Of a stretch of 64,000 bases of DNA, positions 8,488 through 62,001 are shown piece after piece. The translations under genes were made by a program, and so were the position numbers. The notes under the pieces are model-generated. The model was not told the DNA's origin. It was given only the letters and a program-made list of their open reading frames with translations, and made no database searches. The first letter of the stretch is position 1. Every line of letters starts with the position of its first letter. The stretch is from Diaphorobacter nitroreducens (lineage in GTDB: Bacteria > Pseudomonadota > Gammaproteobacteria > Burkholderiales > Burkholderiaceae_C), in the NCBI GenBank assembly GCA_003755025.1, contig RJVL01000007.1:205711-269710 (forward strand), read 5' to 3'.

Positions 8488-8970
8488 ATGAAATCTATCA
8501 AATTCATAGCTGCTTGCGCTTTACTGGCGGGCGCTTCAGCCAGTTTTAGCCATGAGAACATGCACAACAGCCACCCTACCGTCGCCCCGCAGCAGCAAGA
8601 ATGGGGGATTGCGGGAGAGGCCAAGGGCGCAAAGCGCACCATCACCTTGCGCATGACGGACGACATGCGCTTTACCCCGTCGCACTTCACCGTCAAACAG
8701 GGCGAGACCGTGCGCCTGCGCGTGGAGAACCAGGGCCAGGTCATGCATGAGGTGGTGCTGGGCACACAGGGCACGTTGGACCAGCATGCGGCCATGATGC
8801 GCCAGTACCCCGACATGGAGCACGCCGAACCCCACATGGCCCACGTGGCCCCGCGCGCCAAGGAAGACCTGGTCTGGCACTTCAACCGGCCCGGCCGCTT
8901 CGACTTCGCCTGCCTGATCCCCGGCCACTACGAAGCAGGCATGCGCGGCACCTTCACCGTCACGCCCTGA
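8488..8970 (+). CDS. copI: CopI-type periplasmic cupredoxin
   Basis: A 160-residue blue-copper protein with a complete type-1 site. The first His is in VMHEVVLG (about residue 87); the remaining ligands are in CLIPGHYEAGM near the C-terminus (Cys, His, Met). The mature N-terminus and the loop MMRQYPDMEHAEPHMAHV are Met/His-rich, as in CopI-type copper-tolerance cupredoxins. The signal peptide MKSIKFIAACALLAGASASF is unusual: bases 8506-8541, coding IAACALLAGASA, are a copy of the window's interspersed repeat, and ASA forms the predicted signal-peptidase motif. The start at 8488 follows CTCGGAGAAACCC, a fair ribosome-binding site. It lies 16 bp after the oxidase. Confidence 0.88.
   Translation: MKSIKFIAACALLAGASASFSHENMHNSHPTVAPQQQEWGIAGEAKGAKRTITLRMTDDMRFTPSHFTVKQGETVRLRVENQGQVMHEVVLGTQGTLDQHAAMMRQYPDMEHAEPHMAHVAPRAKEDLVWHFNRPGRFDFACLIPGHYEAGMRGTFTVTP
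8502..8550 (+). repeat. Interspersed palindromic repeat, copy 2, inside copI signal peptide
   Basis: Plus-orientation copy within coding sequence. The left arm ATAGCTGCTTGCGCTT is intact; the right arm (GGGCGCTTCAGCCAGTTTT) is diverged but alignable. It is read in frame as the hydrophobic core and cleavage region of the cupredoxin signal peptide. Confidence 0.75.
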
Positions 8971-22505: not shown

Positions 22506-22530
22506 AGAGCACGCCAGACTGCGACCACTC

Positions 22531-22581
22531 TTTAAATGATAGCTGCTTGCGCTTGCTGGATAAGCGCTAAAGGCATATTTG
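22531..22581 (+). repeat. Interspersed palindromic repeat, copy 3
   Basis: Plus-orientation copy, close to consensus (GATAGCTGCTTGCGCTT, then GCTGGATAAGCGCTAAAGGC), in the spacer after the M14 peptidase gene and before tRNA-Arg. Confidence 0.85.
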
Positions 22582-22715
22582 GCATCATACACAGCACCCG
22601 CACGGCGTCTTCTATTTCATGGGCTGCAGAGGCTGGTGCGGAAGCGCTCCGGGCGCCTGTATGATCCTGCACTCCGAGCGCGCACATCACCGCGCGCACC
22701 GCATACCTGCATCAT

Positions 22716-40097: not shown

Positions 40098-41351
40098 TCA
40101 GCGAGCGGCAGCGGAGGCCGCTGGCGCTTCATTATTAATAGCTGGTAGCGCTTGTCCTTCGGGCGTTGGAGCCGTTTTTGGCTTGTAAACCGTCACCACC
40201 TGTCCCGGGGCCAGCACATGCACGCCCGTGGCCACCACCTGCATGCCGGGGGTGAGGCCGGCGGCGATCACGGCCTCGTTGCCGTCGGCCGTGGCGATCT
40301 GCACCGGCTGCAGGCGCACGGTGCCGTTGGCACTGCCGTCCTTGGCCTCATAGACCCACACCACCGTCTGGCCGCCCTCCTGGCGCAGGGCGCTGGTGGG
40401 CAGCTTGATCGCCTGCACACCGCCCCGCGCCAGCACCTGCGGCGCCACATACACGGTGGCGCCCAGCGGCGGCACGTCCGCGCCCTCCACCGCCACTTTC
40501 ACGAGGAAGGTGCGCGTCACCGGATCGGCGCTGGCCGCCACCTCGCGCACCCGGCCCTGCAGCAGCGCGTCGCCCGACCAGGCGCGCACCTGCACGGCCT
40601 GCCCTGCGCGCAACTGGCCCACCTTGTCCTCCGGCACCGAGAACACCGCGTCGCGCGGGCCGTCGCGAGCAATGCGCACCACCGGCGTGCCCGCAGACAC
40701 CACCTGGCCGGGCTCGGCGTCAACCGACGTCACCACCCCCGGCGCATCCGCCACCAGGCGCGTGTACTCGGTCTGGTTGCCCTGGGAAGCGAGCTGCGCG
40801 CGCGCCTGGTCCAGCGAAGCCTGCGCGGCCTTCAGCTGAGCTTGGCGGCGGTCCAGCTCCGCCCCGCTGATGAAGTTCTGCGCGCGCAGCTTGGAAAAGC
40901 GCTCCAAATCCGCCGCGGCCAAATCACGCTGCGTGGTGGCGGACGCCACCTGGGCGCGCGCGGCCTGCGCAGCCAGCTCATAGTCGCGCGGATCCAGTTG
41001 CGCCAACACCTGGCCGGCCTGCACGCGCTGGCCCAGCTCGGCCTGGCGCTGCACGATCTTGCCGGCCACGCGAAAACCCAGGCGCGATTCCACGCGCGCG
41101 CGCACCTCGCCCGCGTATTCCAGGTGCATCTGCAGGGGCGCCACGCCGACGGTGAGCAGTTTCACCGCGCGCACCGGCTCTGGCGCCGGCTCGCGGCGCG
41201 AACATCCCGCCAGCACCAAGGCAGCCACGGCCAGCACCAGTGCAGCACCCGCCACGCCGCCACGCGGCGGCCACAAAAAAACCCCGCGGCGGGGTTGCAA
41301 TGAAGACGGGCCCGGCAGGCCCGCGGCGCGCTGTGCGACAGGGTGGGTCAT
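40098..41351 (-). CDS. RND efflux periplasmic adaptor, lipoprotein
   Basis: A 417-residue membrane-fusion protein linking the RND pump to an outer-membrane channel. The signal ends in the lipobox LAGCSRR (Cys at about 50). The barrel/lipoyl halves flank an alpha hairpin (DPRDYELAAQAARAQVASATTQ ... AELDRRQAQLKAAQASLDQARAQ), with the signature GFRVAGKIVQRQAELGQRVQAGQ. The last ~17 residues before NEAPAASAAAR (KTAPTPEGQALPAINN) are encoded by a copy of the interspersed repeat in antisense orientation, so the natural C-terminus has been replaced or extended. A promoter and a TetR-type operator lie upstream. Confidence 0.92.
   Translation of the reverse strand: MTHPVAQRAAGLPGPSSLQPRRGVFLWPPRGGVAGAALVLAVAALVLAGCSRREPAPEPVRAVKLLTVGVAPLQMHLEYAGEVRARVESRLGFRVAGKIVQRQAELGQRVQAGQVLAQLDPRDYELAAQAARAQVASATTQRDLAAADLERFSKLRAQNFISGAELDRRQAQLKAAQASLDQARAQLASQGNQTEYTRLVADAPGVVTSVDAEPGQVVSAGTPVVRIARDGPRDAVFSVPEDKVGQLRAGQAVQVRAWSGDALLQGRVREVAASADPVTRTFLVKVAVEGADVPPLGATVYVAPQVLARGGVQAIKLPTSALRQEGGQTVVWVYEAKDGSANGTVRLQPVQIATADGNEAVIAAGLTPGMQVVATGVHVLAPGQVVTVYKPKTAPTPEGQALPAINNEAPAASAAAR
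40131..40183 (+). repeat. Interspersed palindromic repeat, copy 4, inside adaptor gene
   Basis: Plus-orientation copy (AATAGCTGGTAGCGCTTG, then GGGCGTTGGAGCC and TTTTTGGC) overlapping the 3' end of the minus-strand adaptor gene; it encodes about 17 C-terminal residues in antisense. Confidence 0.78.
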
Positions 41352-45463: not shown

Positions 45464-46764
45464 AGGTTGCCATCGTCGGCGCCGGCTGGGCCGGTATGGC
45501 CGCGGCCGTGCATGCGGCCCAGGCGGGCCACGCGGTCAGCGTGTTCGAGGCCAGCCGCACCCTGGGCGGGCGCGCGCGCGCCGTGGCCGGCCAGCGCGCG
45601 GACGGCTCGTCCCTGGTGCTGGACAACGGCCAGCACATCCTCATCGGCGCCTATGCCGAATGCCTGCGCCTGATGCGCGCCGTGGGCGTCACGCCCGACT
45701 CCGCCCTGCTGCGCCTGCCGCTGGCCCTGGTGTTCCCGGATGGCAGCGGCCTGGCCCTGCCCGATGCCCCGCCGCCCTGGGATGCGCTGGCGGGCATCGC
45801 CCGCGCACGCGGCTGGAGCCTGCGCGAGCGTGCGGCCCTGCTGGCGCGCGCCGCACGCTGGCGGCTGGCGGGGTTCCGGTGCGCACCGGGCACCAGCGTG
45901 GCGGACTTGTGCGCAGGCCTGCCGCAGCGGCTGGTGGACGAGTTCATAGCGCCGCTGTGCGTGTCGGCGTTGAACACGTCCGTGCAAGATTCCTGCGGCC
46001 AGGTGTTCCTGCGTGTGCTGCACGACAGCCTGTTCGCCGGCCGGGGCGGCTCCCACCTGCTGCTGCCGCGCACCGACCTGGGCGCGCTGTTCCCCGAGCC
46101 CGCGGCGCAGTGGCTGCAGCAGCGCGGCCACGCGGTGCACCGCGGCCAACGCGTGCAGGCACTCGCACGCGACGAGGCCGGCTGGCGCGTGGACGGCTGC
46201 GCGTTCGACGCCGTGCTGTTGGCCACCAGCAGCACCGAGTCCGCCCGCCTGGTGGCCGAAGCCGCCGTGCCCGCAGCCGAGCGCCCCGCCCTGCGGACCT
46301 GGGCCGCCGGTGCGCAGGCACTGCGCTTTGGCGCCATCGCCACCGTGTATGCCGAACTGCCAGGAGCGCGCCCCCCGCTGCTGCCCCGCCCCATGCTGGC
46401 GCTGCGCGCGCGCGCGCAGCGGCCCGCGCAGTTCGTCTTCGACCGCGCGCTGCTGGGCGGCCCGGCCGGGCTGTTGGCGTTCGTGGTCAGCGCCTTCGAG
46501 GGCGAGCGCACCGCGCTGGAGCGCGACGTGCTGGCCCAGGCGGCCGAGGACCTGGCCCTGCCCGGCCTGCGCGCGGTGCAGACGGTGGTGGAAAAGCGTG
46601 CCACCTTTGCCTGCACGCCCGCCCTGGCGCGCCCGCCGCGCGTGATTGCGCCCGGCCTGCAGGCCTGCGGCGACTACGTGGCAGGGCCCTACCCCGCCAC
46701 GTTGGAGGGCGCGGTACTGCACGGCGCGGCGGCCGCGCAGGATTTAGGCCATATCAGCCTCTAG
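45460..46764 (+). CDS. hpnE: Hydroxysqualene dehydroxylase HpnE
   Basis: A 434-residue FAD-dependent amine-oxidase-fold enzyme that reduces hydroxysqualene to squalene. The dinucleotide-binding motif is at the very N-terminus (VAIVGAGWAGMAAAVHAAQAGH), with the ARTL/GGRAR motif FEASRTLGGRARAV. The C-terminal FAD-binding end reads GLQACGDYVAGPYPATLEGAV. Start is GTG at 45460 overlapping the hpnD stop. The last four codons and the stop (HISL and TAG) fall in a copy of the interspersed repeat, which also holds the stop of the convergent YihY gene. Confidence 0.93.
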   Translation: MKVAIVGAGWAGMAAAVHAAQAGHAVSVFEASRTLGGRARAVAGQRADGSSLVLDNGQHILIGAYAECLRLMRAVGVTPDSALLRLPLALVFPDGSGLALPDAPPPWDALAGIARARGWSLRERAALLARAARWRLAGFRCAPGTSVADLCAGLPQRLVDEFIAPLCVSALNTSVQDSCGQVFLRVLHDSLFAGRGGSHLLLPRTDLGALFPEPAAQWLQQRGHAVHRGQRVQALARDEAGWRVDGCAFDAVLLATSSTESARLVAEAAVPAAERPALRTWAAGAQALRFGAIATVYAELPGARPPLLPRPMLALRARAQRPAQFVFDRALLGGPAGLLAFVVSAFEGERTALERDVLAQAAEDLALPGLRAVQTVVEKRATFACTPALARPPRVIAPGLQACGDYVAGPYPATLEGAVLHGAAAAQDLGHISL

Positions 46765-46799
46765 CGCTTACCCATCAAGCGCTAACAGCTATCGTTTAA
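46745..46799 (-). repeat. Interspersed palindromic repeat, copy 5, shared by two gene ends
   Basis: Minus-orientation copy (GATAGCTGTTAGCGCTTG, then GTAAGCGCTAGAGGC). It contains both the hpnE stop (46762-46764) and the stop of the convergent YihY gene (46789-46791). Confidence 0.85.
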
Positions 46800-48078
46800 G
46801 GAGCGTCTCAGGTGGCCGCTGCGCGGATTCGCGCGGCAGCACGTCGGCCAGCGTGAGCACCTCCAGCCCCGTGTGCGCCCACAGGCGCTCCAGCGGCGGG
46901 GTGCGCGCCAGCAGCAGGCGCTGCACCAGCGGCTCCATGTGCGTGGTGGCCGGCTCGGCCAGCAGCACGTAGCGTGCGTCGGCTGCGTCGGACCCATCGG
47001 CGGCCGTCTCGTCCACCCGCACCACCCAATCCAGCGCCGCCAGCACCGGCAGCACGGACCCCACCTGCAGCACATCCACGCGCAGCCGCTGGGCCAGCTC
47101 CAGCACGCTCAGCCCATGGGGCGGTTGCTGGCGCGCGCGGTGCAGCTGCTGCAGCACCTCCACGGCCAGCAAGAATGCCCAGCCCTCGCCCGTGGCGCAG
47201 CGCGCCACGCCGGCGAGCAGGCTCGGCAAATAGGCGGCCACCACCGCACCCAGCAGCACGATGACCCAGGCCACGTACACCCACAGCAGCAAGATGGGCA
47301 GCGTGGCGAACGTGCCGTACAGCACCGAATAGGTGGGTACCGACGCCAGGTACAGCGACAGCACTTTCTTGGCCAGCTCGATGCCCACGGCGACGAACAC
47401 CCCGCCCGCCCAGGCGTGGCGCCAGTGCACCTGGGTGTTGGGCACATAGCGGTACAGCGCCGCCATGCCGGCGGCCAGCACGAAGAACTCGATCGCATCG
47501 AACAGCAGGCGTGCTCCGCCCGGCAGCGTGTCGCCGATACCGCGCGACGCGGCGCTGGCGACCGAGGTGGTCAGCGCCAGGCTGGCCGCCAGCACCAGCG
47601 GACCGAGCGTGAGCGCGGCCCAGTAGATCAGCACACGCTGGCCCAGCGGGCGCAGGCGCTGCACGCGCCAGATGTTGTTGAGCGTGCGGTCGATGGTGAG
47701 GATCAGCGCCAGCGCGGTCACCATGAGGATCGACAAGCCCGCCGCGCCCAGGCCATGCGCCTTGGCGGCGAACTGTGTGAGGTAGCCCAGCACCGGGCGC
47801 GAGATGCTGTCGGGCACCAGGCTGTCCACCAGCCAGCGCTGCAGCACGAGCTGCATCTCGGCAAACATGGGGAACACGGTGAACATGGCCAGCGCCACCG
47901 TCACGAACGGCACCAGCGACAGCAGCGTGGTGAAGGTGAGGCTGCTGGCCGTCAGCCCCAGGCGGTCCTCGCGAAAGCGCTCGCGCAGCGTCTGCGCGGT
48001 GGTGCGCCAGGGGAAGTGGGAAAGCTCCACCAGCCACTCCTCGGCACGCACTGCAATGGACTGTAGGGACAACGACAT
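46789..48078 (-). CDS. YihY/BrkB-family inner-membrane protein
   Basis: A 429-residue protein with the six-helix YihY/BrkB (once RNase BN) core. The conserved N-terminal stretch FREDRLGLTASSLTFTTLLSLVPFVTVALAMF is followed by helices with the motif YRYVPNTQVHWRHAWAGGVFVAVGIELAKKVLSLYL. The C-terminal ~130 residues are soluble with a winged-helix-like look (QPPHGLSVLELAQRLRVDVLQVGSVLPVLAALDWV). Function in this family is unresolved. Start at 48078 (MSLSLQSIAV). The final codons LLKR and stop overlap a repeat copy. Confidence 0.88.
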   Translation of the reverse strand: MSLSLQSIAVRAEEWLVELSHFPWRTTAQTLRERFREDRLGLTASSLTFTTLLSLVPFVTVALAMFTVFPMFAEMQLVLQRWLVDSLVPDSISRPVLGYLTQFAAKAHGLGAAGLSILMVTALALILTIDRTLNNIWRVQRLRPLGQRVLIYWAALTLGPLVLAASLALTTSVASAASRGIGDTLPGGARLLFDAIEFFVLAAGMAALYRYVPNTQVHWRHAWAGGVFVAVGIELAKKVLSLYLASVPTYSVLYGTFATLPILLLWVYVAWVIVLLGAVVAAYLPSLLAGVARCATGEGWAFLLAVEVLQQLHRARQQPPHGLSVLELAQRLRVDVLQVGSVLPVLAALDWVVRVDETAADGSDAADARYVLLAEPATTHMEPLVQRLLLARTPPLERLWAHTGLEVLTLADVLPRESAQRPPETLLKR

Positions 48079-48557: not shown

Positions 48558-49982
48558 ATGACCACTGCCCTGCTCGACACCCTGCGCCGGATCGTCGGCG
48601 CCGCCCATGTACTGACCGAGGGCGACCTTGCTGCCTATGAACAGGACTGGCGCAAGCGCTCCCATGGCAAGTCCCTGGCCGTGGTGCGCCCGGGCTCCAC
48701 GGCCGAGGTGGCAGCGGTGGTGCGCGCCTGTGCCGATGCCGGCGTGGCGATCGTGCCGCAGGGCGGCAACACCGGCCTGTCGGTGGGCAGCACGCCCGAC
48801 GGCAGCGGCACACAGGTGGTGCTGAGCCTCACGCGCATGAATGCGGTGCGCGCCATCGACCGCGACAACCTCACCATGACGGTGGAGGCCGGCTGCATAT
48901 TGCAGGCCCTGCAGGAGACGGCCGAGAAAGCCGATCTGCTGTTCCCGCTGTCGCTTGCCGCCGAAGGCAGTTGCACCATCGGCGGCAACCTGTCCACCAA
49001 TGCCGGCGGCACGCAGGTGGTGCGCTACGGCAACACGCGCGAGCTGTGCCTGGGCCTGGAGGTGGTCACGCCCCAGGGCGAGGTGTGGAACGGCCTCTCC
49101 GGCCTGCGCAAGGACAACACCGGCTACGACCTGCGCGACCTGTACATCGGCAGCGAAGGCACGCTGGGCATCATCACCGCGGCCACCATGAAGCTCTTCC
49201 CCCAGCCCGCCGCGCAGCTCACCGCCTGGGCCGCCGTGCCGTCGATGGGGGCGGCCGTGCGCCTGCTGGGCCTGTCGCATCAGCACCTGGGGGCCGGGCT
49301 CACGGGTTTCGAGGTGATGGGGCAGTTTGCACTGTCGCTGGTCATCAAGCACATGCCGCAGCTGCGCGTGCCGTTCGCCGGGCTGGACGGCGCGCCACCC
49401 TACTACGTGCTGCTGGAAAACAGCGACAGCGAATCCGAAGAACATGCGCGCCAGCGCTTCGAGGCGCTGCTGGAACTGGCCTTCGAGGACGGCTGCGTGC
49501 TGGACGCCGTGGTCGCCGAGAGCCTGTCGCAAGCGCATGAGCTGTGGCATATCCGCGAGAGCATTCCGCTGGCCCAGGCCGAAGAAGGCCTGAACATCAA
49601 GCACGACATCTCGATCGCCGCGTCGCGCATCCCCGCGTTCGTGGAGCACACCGATGCGCTGCTGCAGCGCGAGATTCCCGGCGTGCGCCTGGTCAACTTC
49701 GGCCACCTGGGCGACGGCAATCTGCACTACAACGTACAGGCGCCGGCGGGCGGCGATGCGCGGGAGTTCCTGCGTACGCAGGAGGACCGCGTCAACGCCC
49801 TGGTGTACGACGCGGTGGCGCAGTTCGACGGCTCGTTCTCGGCCGAGCACGGCGTGGGCGTGCTCAAGGCCGACAAGCTGGCGCAGTACAAGTCGCCCGT
49901 GGCCCTGGGGCTGATGCGCGCCATCAAGCAGGCCCTGGACCCGCAGGGCCTCATGAACCCGGGCTGCATTCTTCAAAAATGA
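48558..49982 (+). CDS. FAD-linked oxidase, GlcD / D-2-hydroxyacid dehydrogenase type
   Basis: A 474-residue flavoprotein of the FAD-binding type 4 family, which includes glycolate oxidase GlcD, D-lactate and D-2-hydroxyglutarate dehydrogenases. The FAD domain (about 35-215) has [34 protein letters not shown] and [26 protein letters not shown]. The substrate domain ends with the metal/flavin motifs [15 protein letters not shown] and [15 protein letters not shown]. The exact 2-hydroxyacid cannot be named. The stop TGA (49980-49982) already lies in a repeat copy that fills the spacer to thyA. Confidence 0.88.
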
Positions 49983-50028
49983 GAGCTGTTGGCGCTTGTC
50001 TAGCAAGCGCTGGAGCCACTTTTCATTC
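49974..50028 (+). repeat. Interspersed palindromic repeat, copy 6
   Basis: Plus-orientation copy (GAGAGCTGTTGGCGCTTGTC, then GCAAGCGCTGGAGCC) running from the last codons of the FAD oxidase to 7 bp before the thyA ATG. Confidence 0.82.
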
Positions 50029-50034
50029 AAGACC

Positions 50035-51379: not shown

Positions 51380-51399
51380 CGCCCGCGCACTTCTCACTA

Positions 51400-51450
51400 T
51401 ATTTTTGATAGCTGCTTGCGCTTACTGCAAAAGCGCTGGAGGCCAAAAAC
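51400..51450 (+). repeat. Interspersed palindromic repeat, copy 7, supplying a ribosome-binding site
   Basis: Plus-orientation copy (GATAGCTGCTTGCGCTTAC, then AAAAGCGCTGGAGGCCAAAAA). Its right end GGAGG (51438-51442) stands 8 bp before the exonuclease III ATG. Confidence 0.86.
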
Positions 51451-52227
51451 ATGCAAATCGCCACCTGGAACATCAATTCCCTCTCCGTGCGCCTGCCGCA
51501 GGTGTTGGCCTGGCTGGAGGCCAACCCCGTGGACGCCATTGGCCTGCAAGAGCTCAAGCTGGTGGACGAGAAATTCCCGCACGACGCCTTCGAAGCAGCG
51601 GGCTACCACGCGGTGTGCTTCGGCCAGAAGACCTATAACGGCGTGGCCATCCTTAGCCGCACGCCGCTGCGCGACGTGGTGCGCAATATCCCGGGCCATG
51701 GCGACGAGCAGGCCCGCGTCATCGCCGCTACGCTGGATACGCCTGAAGGCCCGCTGCGCCTCGTGAACTGCTACTTTGTGAATGGCCAGGCGCCGGGGAC
51801 CGAGAAGTTCAGCTACAAGCTGCTGTGGCTGGAGGCGCTACGCGACTGGCTGCGCACCGAGCTGGCCGCGCATCCACGGCTGGTGCTGGTGGGCGACTTC
51901 AATGTGGCCCCCGAGGACCGCGACTCCTTCGATCCCGTGGGCTTGAAGGACACCATCCACCACACGGTAGAGGAGCGCCAGCACTTCCAGGACCTGCTGG
52001 GGCTCGGCCTGACCGACGCCTTCCGCCTGTTCGATCAGCCCGAGAAGAGCTATTCGTGGTGGGACTACCGCATGCTGGGGTTTCAGAAGAACCGCGGGCT
52101 GCGCATCGACCACATCCTGGTCAGCACTGCGCTGCGGCCCTCCGTGACGGCCTGCCGCATCGACCGCGCGCCGCGCAAAAATCCGCAGCCCAGCGACCAC
52201 GCGCCGGTCGTGGTGTCGCTGGGCTGA
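51451..52227 (+). CDS. xthA: Exodeoxyribonuclease III
   Basis: A 258-residue AP endonuclease / 3'-5' exonuclease for base-excision repair. It has the EEP-fold motifs: IATWNINSLSVRLP, LQELKLVDEKFP (catalytic Glu), Y-site KTYNGVAILSR, LVGDFNVAPEDRDSFDP (Asp/Asn), SYSWWDYRMLGFQKNRGLRIDHIL and QPSDHAPVV (His at the end). The start ATG directly follows the repeat copy whose GGAGG acts as ribosome-binding site. It is convergent with the DUF2383 gene. Confidence 0.95.
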   Translation: MQIATWNINSLSVRLPQVLAWLEANPVDAIGLQELKLVDEKFPHDAFEAAGYHAVCFGQKTYNGVAILSRTPLRDVVRNIPGHGDEQARVIAATLDTPEGPLRLVNCYFVNGQAPGTEKFSYKLLWLEALRDWLRTELAAHPRLVLVGDFNVAPEDRDSFDPVGLKDTIHHTVEERQHFQDLLGLGLTDAFRLFDQPEKSYSWWDYRMLGFQKNRGLRIDHILVSTALRPSVTACRIDRAPRKNPQPSDHAPVVVSLG

Positions 52228-53221: not shown

Positions 53222-53355
53222 GTATCGACTCCGGTTGGTTGAACAATGAATTCATTGTTGAAGCCCCCCGGGCACCATCGGGTCGGTGACGGCAGCCCCT
53301 GCCTGTAGGACTCACGCGCACGCTGTGCATGCGCGCCACAAGGTCTTATGCTATC

Positions 53356-53405
53356 GAATTAATAGCTACTAGCGCTTGTCCTTAAAGCGCCAGCGCCTTG
53401 TTTCA
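53356..53405 (+). repeat. Interspersed palindromic repeat, copy 8
   Basis: Plus-orientation copy (AATAGCTACTAGCGCTTGTC, then AAAGCGCCAGCGCC), abutting and probably including the ntrC stop codon (53403-53405). Confidence 0.8.
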
Positions 53406-54938
53406 CTCATCATCGTGCGCATCCAGGCCCAGTTCCTGGATCTTGCGCGTGATGGTGTTGCGGCCGATCCCCAGGCGCTGCGCTGCTTCCATGCGCCGCC
53501 CGTGCGTGGCCTGCAGCGCCGTGCGGATCAGGCGCGACTCGAAACGCCGCGTGAGCACGTCCCACACGTCGGCCTGGCCGCTGCGCAGCAGCTGCTGGGC
53601 CTCGCTCACCAGCGCGGGCTCCCAGCCCATGCCATCCAGGGCCGCAGCCTGGTCGGTGCGCGTGCCCGCCGGCGCAGGCGGCAGCGCGGGGGCCGGCACG
53701 CTCGTCGCGCCAGCGGCGACCTCGTCCGTCACGCCCTGCAACGGCGCGGCGGGATGCGGCGTGGCCTCCAGCACCTCGGGCGGCAGGTCCTGCGCCGAGA
53801 TGACCTGCGCGGGCGCCATCACCGTCAGCCAGTGGCAGATGTTCTCCAGCTGGCGCACGTTGCCGGGGAAGGCAAAGCGTGTGAGCAGGGCCAGCGCCGC
53901 GTCGGAGATGCGCTTGGGCTCCACGCCCAGTTGCCTTGCGCTGCGCTGCAGGAAGTAGCGTGTGAGCATGGCCACGTCTTCGCTGCGCTCGCGCAGCGCC
54001 GGCAGGCGCAGGCGGATCACGTTGAGGCGGTGGAACAGGTCCTCGCGGAAGGCGCCGTCCTTCACGCGCTGCTCCAGGTTCTGGTGCGTAGCGGCGATCA
54101 CCCGCACATTGGCCTTCACGGCGGCATGGCCGCCCACGCGGTAGAACTGCCCGTCCGACAGCACGCGCAGCAGGCGCGTCTGCAGGTCGAAGGGCATGTC
54201 GCCGATTTCGTCGAGGAACAGCGTGCCGCCCTCGGCCTGCTCGAAGCGCCCGCGCCGCTGCGTCTGCGCGCCCGTGAAGGCGCCGCGCTCATGGCCGAAG
54301 AGCTCGCTCTCCAGCAGGTCCTTCGGGATGGCCGCAGTGTTGATGGCCACGAAGGGCCCACCCGCCACGGGCGAGTGCTTGTGCAGCGCGCGTGCCACGA
54401 GTTCCTTGCCCGAGCCGGATTCGCCCGTGATCAGCACCGTGACCACGCTCTGGCTCAGCCGGCCGATGGCGCGGAACACGTCCTGCATGGCGGGTGCCTG
54501 GCCCAGCATCTCGGGCATGGCGGTGAGCTGCTGCTCGGCGACTTCCTCGCGCTGGCTCTCCTCCACGGCGCGGCGGATCAGCTCCACCGCCTTGGGCAGG
54601 TCGAACGGCTTGGGCAGGTATTCGAAGGCGCCGCCCTGGAAGGCGGACACGGCGCTGTCCAGGTCGGAATACGCCGTCATCACGATGACCGGCAGACCGG
54701 GTTGCAGGCCGCGCACCTTCTCCAGCAGTTGCAGGCCGGAGCCGCCCGGCATGCGGATATCGCTCACCAGGACCTGCGGTCCCTGGTGGGTGGGGTCGCC
54801 CGCGGCCACATCGGCCAGCGCGTCGAGTACATCGCGCGCCTGCGTGAAGCTGCGCGTGGGCAGGTTTTCGCGCGCCAGGGCCTTTTCGAGGACGAAGCGG
54901 ATCGAAGGGTCGTCGTCTACTATCCAGATCGGCTTCAT
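53403..54938 (-). CDS. glnG: Nitrogen response regulator NtrC
   Basis: A 511-residue sigma-54 activator. The receiver domain has the phosphoacceptor Asp60 (VLVSDIRMPGG). The AAA+ domain carries Walker A GESGSGKE (172-179) and the sigma-54 contact loop GAFTGA (219-224). A ~65-residue Pro/Ala linker precedes the Fis-type HTH at the C-terminus (IRTALQATHGRRMEAAQRLGIGRNTITRKIQELGL). Phosphorylated by NtrB under nitrogen limitation, it turns on glnA and related genes. It lies 51 bp after ntrB in the same direction. The stop is at the edge of a repeat copy. Confidence 0.96.
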   Translation of the reverse strand: MKPIWIVDDDPSIRFVLEKALARENLPTRSFTQARDVLDALADVAAGDPTHQGPQVLVSDIRMPGGSGLQLLEKVRGLQPGLPVIVMTAYSDLDSAVSAFQGGAFEYLPKPFDLPKAVELIRRAVEESQREEVAEQQLTAMPEMLGQAPAMQDVFRAIGRLSQSVVTVLITGESGSGKELVARALHKHSPVAGGPFVAINTAAIPKDLLESELFGHERGAFTGAQTQRRGRFEQAEGGTLFLDEIGDMPFDLQTRLLRVLSDGQFYRVGGHAAVKANVRVIAATHQNLEQRVKDGAFREDLFHRLNVIRLRLPALRERSEDVAMLTRYFLQRSARQLGVEPKRISDAALALLTRFAFPGNVRQLENICHWLTVMAPAQVISAQDLPPEVLEATPHPAAPLQGVTDEVAAGATSVPAPALPPAPAGTRTDQAAALDGMGWEPALVSEAQQLLRSGQADVWDVLTRRFESRLIRTALQATHGRRMEAAQRLGIGRNTITRKIQELGLDAHDDE

Positions 54939-61164: not shown

Positions 61165-62001
61165 TCATTTTCTCTGCGCTTGTGCTCCGTACACAGGATG
61201 CTCGCGCAGCGTGCGAAAGCACAGGCCCCGCGCCTTCAGGCCTTTGACGAGAGGTTCCAGCACAGCGGGTGCCCATGGATCCTTGCGTGACCAGATGCCC
61301 AGATGCGCCAGCAGGATGTCGCCGTCACGAACGGTGCGCAACGCACGCTCCAGCAGGGCCGTATTGCTGTAGTGGTCACTGGGCAGCTCGTCCCCGAGGA
61401 ACCCCGCAGCACTCCATCCCACATGCGTATAACCGCAGGATTTGGCAGCCTCCAGCAGGCGCTGAGAGGTCTTGCCGCCCGGCGCGCGGAATAGCGGGAG
61501 CGGCTCCCGGCCCGTCAGGACACGCAACCGGCTCGCAGCGCCATCGATCTGTGCGCAGTATTGCGCCCCCGTCATCGTCAGGTCCTGACCTGCCTGAGGA
61601 CCGGCCGATGGTCTGACCTTGAACCGCGGCTGCAGCGGCGTCCCCTGGTCGGCACGCCAGTACACATGGTGCAGCGTGTGCGATGCGAACTCGTGCCCTT
61701 CTGCAGCGCGCGCGCGCCACCAGGGCGCCCAGTAGCCATCCAGGCTGCTGCCGCCCGTCTGAGTCGGTTCATCTGCGGCAAAGAAGGTCGCCTTGACCTG
61801 CTGGCGCTGAAGCACCTCGGCCACCAGATGCGCAACGCCCATGTGGCCAGTGTCAAAAGTCAGGTACACAGCGCCTTTGCAGTCATTTTGGCCTGTAGCG
61901 CTTGCTGGATAAGCGCCAACAGCTATCAAAATTGAAGTGCAACAAATATGCCACCTCCGCCGTGCTCCGGGGGAGCGGCCGCGTGGCTCAGCGCTTGGCA
62001 T
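61165..62001 (-). CDS. Secreted polysaccharide deacetylase (NodB domain)
   Basis: A 278-residue exported carbohydrate esterase. NodB motifs: TFDTGH (catalytic Asp, with Thr in place of the usual second Asp), SHTLHH (metal His pair), RAPGGKTSQRLL and LLAHLG. It probably removes N-acetyl groups from peptidoglycan or an exopolysaccharide. The N-terminal signal has an Arg-rich head (GRSPGARRRW), then ILIAVGAYPASA. Bases of a minus-orientation repeat copy encode this core, with ASA as the cleavage motif. The start ATG overlaps the YncE-like gene by 14 bp, so the pair is cotranscribed. Confidence 0.85.
   Translation of the reverse strand: MPSAEPRGRSPGARRRWHICCTSILIAVGAYPASATGQNDCKGAVYLTFDTGHMGVAHLVAEVLQRQQVKATFFAADEPTQTGGSSLDGYWAPWWRARAAEGHEFASHTLHHVYWRADQGTPLQPRFKVRPSAGPQAGQDLTMTGAQYCAQIDGAASRLRVLTGREPLPLFRAPGGKTSQRLLEAAKSCGYTHVGWSAAGFLGDELPSDHYSNTALLERALRTVRDGDILLAHLGIWSRKDPWAPAVLEPLVKGLKARGLCFRTLREHPVYGAQAQRK
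61884..61934 (-). repeat. Interspersed palindromic repeat, copy 9, inside deacetylase signal peptide
   Basis: Minus-orientation copy (TTTTGATAGCTGTTGGCGCTT, then GCAAGCGCTACAGGCC and AAAATGA on the minus strand). It is read in the same frame as copy 2 and again encodes a signal-peptide core ending in ASA. Confidence 0.85.

Follow-up and report, generated by a model that had tools for sequence, protein, structure and literature searches.

In Diaphorobacter nitroreducens, the DNA of a dispersed repeat has probably been recruited as the signal peptide of several presumably exported proteins, a prediction from sequence to which we give a probability of about 80%. The window, meaning the whole 64,000-nucleotide (nt) stretch of DNA analysed here, holds two such cases, in a cupredoxin gene and a polysaccharide deacetylase gene. 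A first-pass annotation had proposed that one repeat element encodes both signal peptides in the same ATA-GCT frame. Both copies are present, and a profile search extends them beyond the limits first described, to positions 8495–8556 on the plus strand and 61876–61941 on the minus strand; both are read in the ATA-GCT frame, and the repeat is the DNA of both predicted signal-peptide regions and is met again at the beginning of further genes for exported proteins. The two genes are also unrelated, as had been said, belonging to distinct Pfam families whose domains start after the repeat.

We propose that the two window copies are predicted Sec-type signals that likely replaced the original N-termini. 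Two stop-poor frames of the repeat would yield a hydrophobic, alanine-rich core with Lys or Arg nearby, and a copy that lands or recombines where a gene for an exported protein begins may need few substitutions to act as a signal. Selection would retain such a copy, and the repeat itself would spread for other reasons, mostly at gene 3′ ends.

The repeat family and its genomic distribution

The repeat unit is about 65 nt long, dispersed and partly palindromic (consensus hairpin AGCGCTT..AAGCGCT). A profile made from 81 seeds found nine copies in the window, given below with their nhmmer E-values and the two genes concerned; S0 denotes the ATA-GCT sense frame and A2 an antisense frame.

8488..8970, plus strand: cupredoxin gene, ORF MKSIKFIAACALLAGASASFSHE..., Pfam PF00127/PF13473
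62001-61165, minus strand: polysaccharide deacetylase gene, ORF MPSAEPRGRSPGARRRWHICCTSILIAVGAYPASATGQNDCKGAVYLTFDTG..., Pfam PF01522
939..999, minus strand: repeat copy, E 3.2e-14, with the strongest hairpin of five folded
8495..8556, plus strand: repeat copy 2, in the cupredoxin gene, frame S0, ..SIKFIAACALLAGASASFSHE, E 4.6e-12
22525..22587, plus strand: repeat copy, E 2.8e-16
40123..40190, plus strand: repeat copy, E 1.1e-12
46741..46807, minus strand: repeat copy, E 1.2e-16
49969..50033, plus strand: repeat copy close to the 5′ end of a gene on the minus strand, not taken as coding, E 2.7e-12
51394..51458, plus strand: repeat copy, E 1.8e-14
53347..53408, plus strand: repeat copy, E 1.8e-11
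61876..61941, minus strand: repeat copy 9, in the deacetylase gene, frame S0, ..TSILIAVGAYPASATGQN, E 1.1e-13

The copy at 49969–50033 was intragenic according to a first, cruder gene caller, which was replaced because it called apparent shadow ORFs, and is absent from the N-terminal list of the second caller. Beyond the window, the profile has 309 matches (E ≤ 1e-2) in a 1.664-Mb sample of the same genome (three contig parts plus the window; the genome has 3.65 Mb in 16 contigs), against a single match in reversed sequence. A core pattern allowing up to three mismatches gave 10 matches in the window, where 0.66 would be expected by chance, and 606 genome-wide against 32 for the reversed pattern, counts in which a palindromic copy may score on both strands. 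An Rfam search of the window at the gathering threshold returned tRNAs only, and the repeat matches no family there. When five copies were folded as RNA, a significant hairpin appeared only for 939–999 (z -3.22, with the others at -0.66 to 0.68), and a general RNA structure role was dropped, one of five folded copies being significant. The copy at 939–999 is a near-perfect palindrome whose core fits both strands.

Strong matches within genes are shared DNA, because synonymous recoding removes nearly all of them: at E ≤ 1e-4 the real sequence has 68 intragenic matches, compared with a mean of 0.5 after synonymous recoding of the 1,530 called genes (10 runs) and 0.4 after within-gene codon shuffling. 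Matches beginning in the first 135 nt of genes numbered 28 in the real sequence and 0.2 after synonymous recoding. Between genes, the 1.664-Mb sample has 3.06 copies per kb where the flanking genes converge, about 1.6 per kb between tandem genes and 0.14 per kb where they diverge. This roughly twenty-fold difference between convergent and divergent gaps means that the family mostly marks gene 3′ ends, which suggests a 3′-end or terminator-like role; the signal copies at gene 5′ ends are exceptions to that distribution.

Genes with the repeat at a predicted signal peptide

In the cupredoxin gene, the repeat encodes residues ~3–23. The start is an ATG with a 4-nt Shine–Dalgarno (SD) match, the Lys ahead of the hydrophobic core is the AAA of the repeat arm, and the Pfam domains lie behind the repeat (PF13473 starting at residue 44, PF00127 at residue 58). 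Eleven of 30 fetched loci, our own included, carry the repeat at the signal (E ≤ 1e-3), beginning just past the ATG, and on a tree of the mature domain these carriers are clustered (4 label changes versus ~9.2 in shuffled labels, with 0 of 500 shuffles as low). In a species collection, 18 of the best 80 loci are carriers, including Acidovorax, Oryzisolibacter and Rhodoferax; the closest named relatives of the protein among the matches listed are from Acidovorax, Diaphorobacter, Oryzisolibacter and allies. The Rhodoferax group has its coding start further out by one codon (MKNTIKF) and a different mature start, and may therefore represent a second recruitment, in a paralogue. Two relatives have a second repeat copy ~1.2–1.4 kb downstream of the cupredoxin start (L083:2862-2927 and L101:2709-2773).

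Compared by eye, the signals of distant cupredoxin orthologues, such as those at loci L099, L102, L105 and L107, look unrelated. The expectation that orthologues lacking the repeat would have unrelated signal peptides seems often borne out, but not throughout, because the orthologues at L086 and L088 keep similar residues (MKTIKFIAIG, MNTIKSIAAIAL) with no repeat match. We read this resemblance as probable decay of the repeat at the DNA level, the alternative being an older, similar signal.

The deacetylase gene has its PF01522 domain from residue 39, close behind the repeat-encoded stretch, and its ATG overlaps the end of an upstream same-strand ORF by 14 nt, an arrangement that fits translational coupling to that ORF. 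The repeat is again at the signal in 11 of 30 fetched loci, our own included (E ≤ 1e-3). From profile positions, it ends 12 nt ahead of LTFDTG-type codons in 10 of the 11 carriers, the locus L113 having eight extra residues between the two. On the tree the carriers are patchy (7 changes versus ~9.2 in shuffled labels, with 32 to 44 of 500 shuffles as low). Both the cupredoxin and the deacetylase copies are common to several genera and are therefore not recent insertions.

In all, seven signal-peptide genes carry the repeat at E ≤ 2e-7 in 1.66 Mb, which is less than half of the genome; from their families, we take all seven products to be exported. Frame S0 is used by the cupredoxin, the deacetylase and GspD, and frame A2 by two neighbouring TctC receptors, a family-5 solute-binding protein and a cyclophilin-type peptidyl-prolyl isomerase (PPIase). 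Throughout, the Pfam domain starts after the repeat stretch, the hydrophobic core lies within it, and no second signal is apparent by eye behind it. In five of the seven, the repeat is preceded by an ATG that has an SD match of 4 nt or more. Two further proteins show related arrangements: in a lipoprotein, the repeat forms an N-terminal extension ahead of the protein's own lipobox-like MAGC, and a branched-chain-type amino-acid (BCAA) binding protein has a weak match (E 6e-4).

Relatives were compared for five of the seven genes; four share the copy at the signal with some relatives, the copies being common to other genera, and the fifth shares it with none of 15. For GspD the repeat is at the signal in 5 of 16 loci at E ≤ 1e-3 (our own, G071, G004, G038 and G009), a count that includes loci L208 and L209, where the match sits on the GspD signal. 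For the PPIase the count is 3 of 16 at the same threshold (our own, G003 and G071), with G004 just short of it at E 0.0022. The family-5 solute-binding protein has the repeat in our own genome only, at 1 of 16 loci (E 4.8e-12): all 15 other fetched loci have other signals and no significant repeat match (best E 0.034), and behind those signals the start of the mature protein (AQTIRVANQGDALSMDPH and close variants) is conserved. Here residues 1–21 fall within the repeat match, which takes in the ATG if MRN is the translation start; there are two more in-frame ATGs immediately upstream and another immediately downstream. This gene looks like a recent signal swap, in which the repeat has likely replaced a signal that the relatives retain. 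The suggestion that the repeat can create or replace an export signal finds its likely example in the family-5 protein; the two window genes for which it was made are old cases, common to several genera.

Reading frames, gene starts and readiness as a signal

The consensus translates as SFAIKLIAASACWTSARARFDF in S0 and as LKSNRALALVQQALAAINLIAN in antisense A2. Of the 219 copies that lie outside called genes, 106 have S0 open, 111 have A0 open and 104 have A2 open; for the other three frames the numbers are 8 to 59. As each of three frames is open in roughly half of the copies, the shared ATA-GCT frame of the two window genes is partly dictated by stop codons and is less informative than it seems. 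The signal does not come from one frame of six, as had been proposed: both S0 and antisense A2 are used. Nor did frame tables single out a signal frame, the enrichment that had been proposed as a check: 51 copies internal to genes prefer the same two frames (S0 15, A2 27, S2 5, A1 2, S1 1, A0 1). The polar antisense A0 frame is open as often as S0 and A2 (111 of 219), yet is used by 1 of the 51 internal copies.

We defined a strict N-terminal copy as one with an ATG and an SD match of at least 4 nt ahead of the repeat. The 1.66 Mb of our own genome has eight, seven of which satisfy a crude signal rule that 179 of 1,436 genes satisfy overall (binomial P 3.4e-6 against 12.5% and 8.4e-5 against 20%); these seven include the lipoprotein extension and the weak E 6e-4 case and exclude the deacetylase and GspD, both of which fall below the strict start criterion, GspD being missed by the signal rule as well. 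In two other genera, sampled at 400 kb each (73 and 89 copies), none of three strict N-terminal copies was a signal. Pooled over the three genomes, 7 of 11 satisfy the rule, or 6 of 10 without the window copy (P 5.1e-4 against 12.5% and 6.4e-3 against 20%). Strict N-terminal copies exceed expectation modestly (8 observed, 2.2 expected; P 0.002), and this excess is inflated, since the strict test could pick among upstream ATGs. A loose N-terminal list of 36 entries was kept out of the statistics because many of its entries look as if they lie upstream, in an open frame.

The element had also been described as a near-complete signal sequence, which the average copy is not. Placed directly after a start codon, the 219 copies outside genes gave 11 passes of the signal rule over all frames, compared with 172 of 3,038 other intergenic 69-mers. 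After MKK, 43 of the 219 passed (28 of them in S0), against 356 of 3,038 intergenic 69-mers and 232 of 4,380 shuffled repeats. Six of the 219 are signal-gene copies for which the gene caller had placed the starts later; without them (n = 213) there are 9 direct passes and 40 after MKK, 26 of these in S0. We rejected the view that a complete signal lies latent in any copy, the direct pass rate being no better than that of other intergenic 69-mers. The average copy is mainly a hydrophobic core; the charge and the cleavage site would have to be supplied or retained by selection.

The majority of the copies within genes are internal and apparently not signals: the sample of our own genome has 51 internal copies and 8 strictly N-terminal ones. 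In-frame S0 copies occur inside four apparent enzymes of this genome (G000; C1:216818-216881, C2:212322-212381, C1:194827-194890 and C2:100070-100135). Pfam domains identify three of the enzyme genes with an internal copy as PolyA_pol/HD (Cca-like, tRNA nucleotidyltransferase-like), DAO (DadA-like) and an APH-type phosphotransferase (SrkA-like), and the fourth is presumably GlcE-like, judging from its motifs. The N-terminus of CinA has the repeat in a third frame, S2, both in our genome (C1:62153-62216; PF02464) and in G071 (C1:337415-337480; assigned from similar residues), and this occurrence in two genera means that N-terminal recruitment does not serve export only. A short-chain-dehydrogenase protein has a copy common to two genera (G000 C1:204135-204200 and G119 C1:393221-393285).

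Competing explanations and precedents

The most serious rival to recruitment, though an unlikely one, is that copies enter any open frame and permissive signal peptides merely purge fewer of them, so that the repeat adds nothing useful. The 51 internal copies set against 8 strict N-terminal ones accord with such tolerance, as does the use of the same two frames by internal copies, and neutral in-frame insertion has been argued for Rickettsia palindromic elements in the part of the source available (PMC2229807). Against it, the repeat stretch holds the hydrophobic core itself in the seven signal genes, with no second signal visible behind, and in four of the five genes compared the copies are common to other genera. 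We also considered homogenisation, because signal DNA stays near the repeat over genus-level distance: gene conversion with the genomic repeat pool might hold it there, lineage by lineage. For the deacetylase, codon agreement in pairs with identical amino acids is higher in the repeat part than in the mature part (0.741 versus 0.525, with 0 of 211 windows as high), a comparison biased by the selection of rows for matching the repeat. The cupredoxin shows no such excess (0.681 versus 0.718) and the own-genome repeat profile was best in only 4 of 7 tests, and we regard homogenisation as a still less probable account.

That the N-termini are mis-called, with repeats upstream and the true starts after them, is improbable for these genes. 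Most N-terminal REPs may be extragenic through misannotation, according to the accessible text of PMC3733652, and many of our loose candidates (36, versus 8 strict) are probably of this kind. In all seven signal genes, however, the Pfam domain is so close behind that, with a start further downstream, little or no signal would remain to proteins of these exported families; five have the ATG and SD match ahead of the repeat, and the residues are conserved between genera. Chance convergence of Ala/Leu-rich signals on the repeat has hardly any probability left. The protein motifs are ordinary signal-peptide motifs, L086 and L088 are alike without a repeat match, and convergence may hold for the weak BCAA-binding case (E 6e-4); it is opposed by the 68 matches that fall to a mean of 0.5 on synonymous recoding (E ≤ 1e-4) and by AT-rich codons (ATA, often TTA) that recur at repeat positions across genera.

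Recruitment of repeat DNA as a predicted signal peptide therefore remains our preferred reading. A broader version of it, which we hold tentatively and at slightly less than even odds, is that the palindromic family constitutes a genome-wide, two-stranded reservoir of signal peptides: charge and core could come from either strand and, by recombination or insertion at gene starts, would have been swapped repeatedly onto already exported proteins in this bacterial family, anciently in the cupredoxin, the deacetylase and GspD and recently in the family-5 protein.

The closest known system is in Yersinia, where the RU-2 (YPAL) repeat is part of the predicted signal peptide of YPO1552 (Delihas 2007, PMC2759123). 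The available text of that paper gives lengths of 168 bp for RU-2 and 127 bp for RU-1, reports YPO1552 as conserved in two close Yersinia species and lists further predicted signals in YPO2495 and YE2643, the latter with RU-1f. As here, a dispersed repeat gives part of an N-terminal signal and relatives in other genera have unrelated signals; unlike those portions of the Yersinia account, our case has a unit of ~65 nt, read from two strands in at least seven genes that belong to known families, with orthologues across many genera. The Yersinia loci are a direct precedent, and the present case is stronger, with more genes and both strands. Rickettsia palindromic elements (RPE; Ogata et al. 2000), of 105–146 bp, resemble our repeat in lying between genes and, in frame, within unrelated conserved genes, and differ from it in length and host; the parts available of two later sources describe one tested insertion as neutral or slightly detrimental and do not describe a signal-peptide role (PMC2229807, PMC10969869). 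REP sequences, or GTAG- and CGTC-tagged palindromes, are likewise short and abundant with some intragenic copies, but measure 20–40 bp and carry a tetranucleotide tag, as far as the accessible text goes (PMC3733652). Ours has ~65 nt and AT-rich arms, and by eye there is no GTAG or CGTC tag at the foot of the stem (consensus 5′ foot GATAGCTGCT). Titles and the beginnings of abstracts, with the subscription literature mostly outside the scope, named no such repeat in these bacteria, and three repeat-core strings gave no literature match.

Point mutation and gene fusion are the usual explanations for the gain or change of export signals. The repeat offers a traceable signal donor, with several unrelated protein families, both strands and repeat-free orthologues for comparison. 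The birth and replacement of signal peptides thereby become countable across genomes and open to testing by reporter fusions, and for annotators, repeat-bearing N-termini can be genuine coding sequence and not an artefact.
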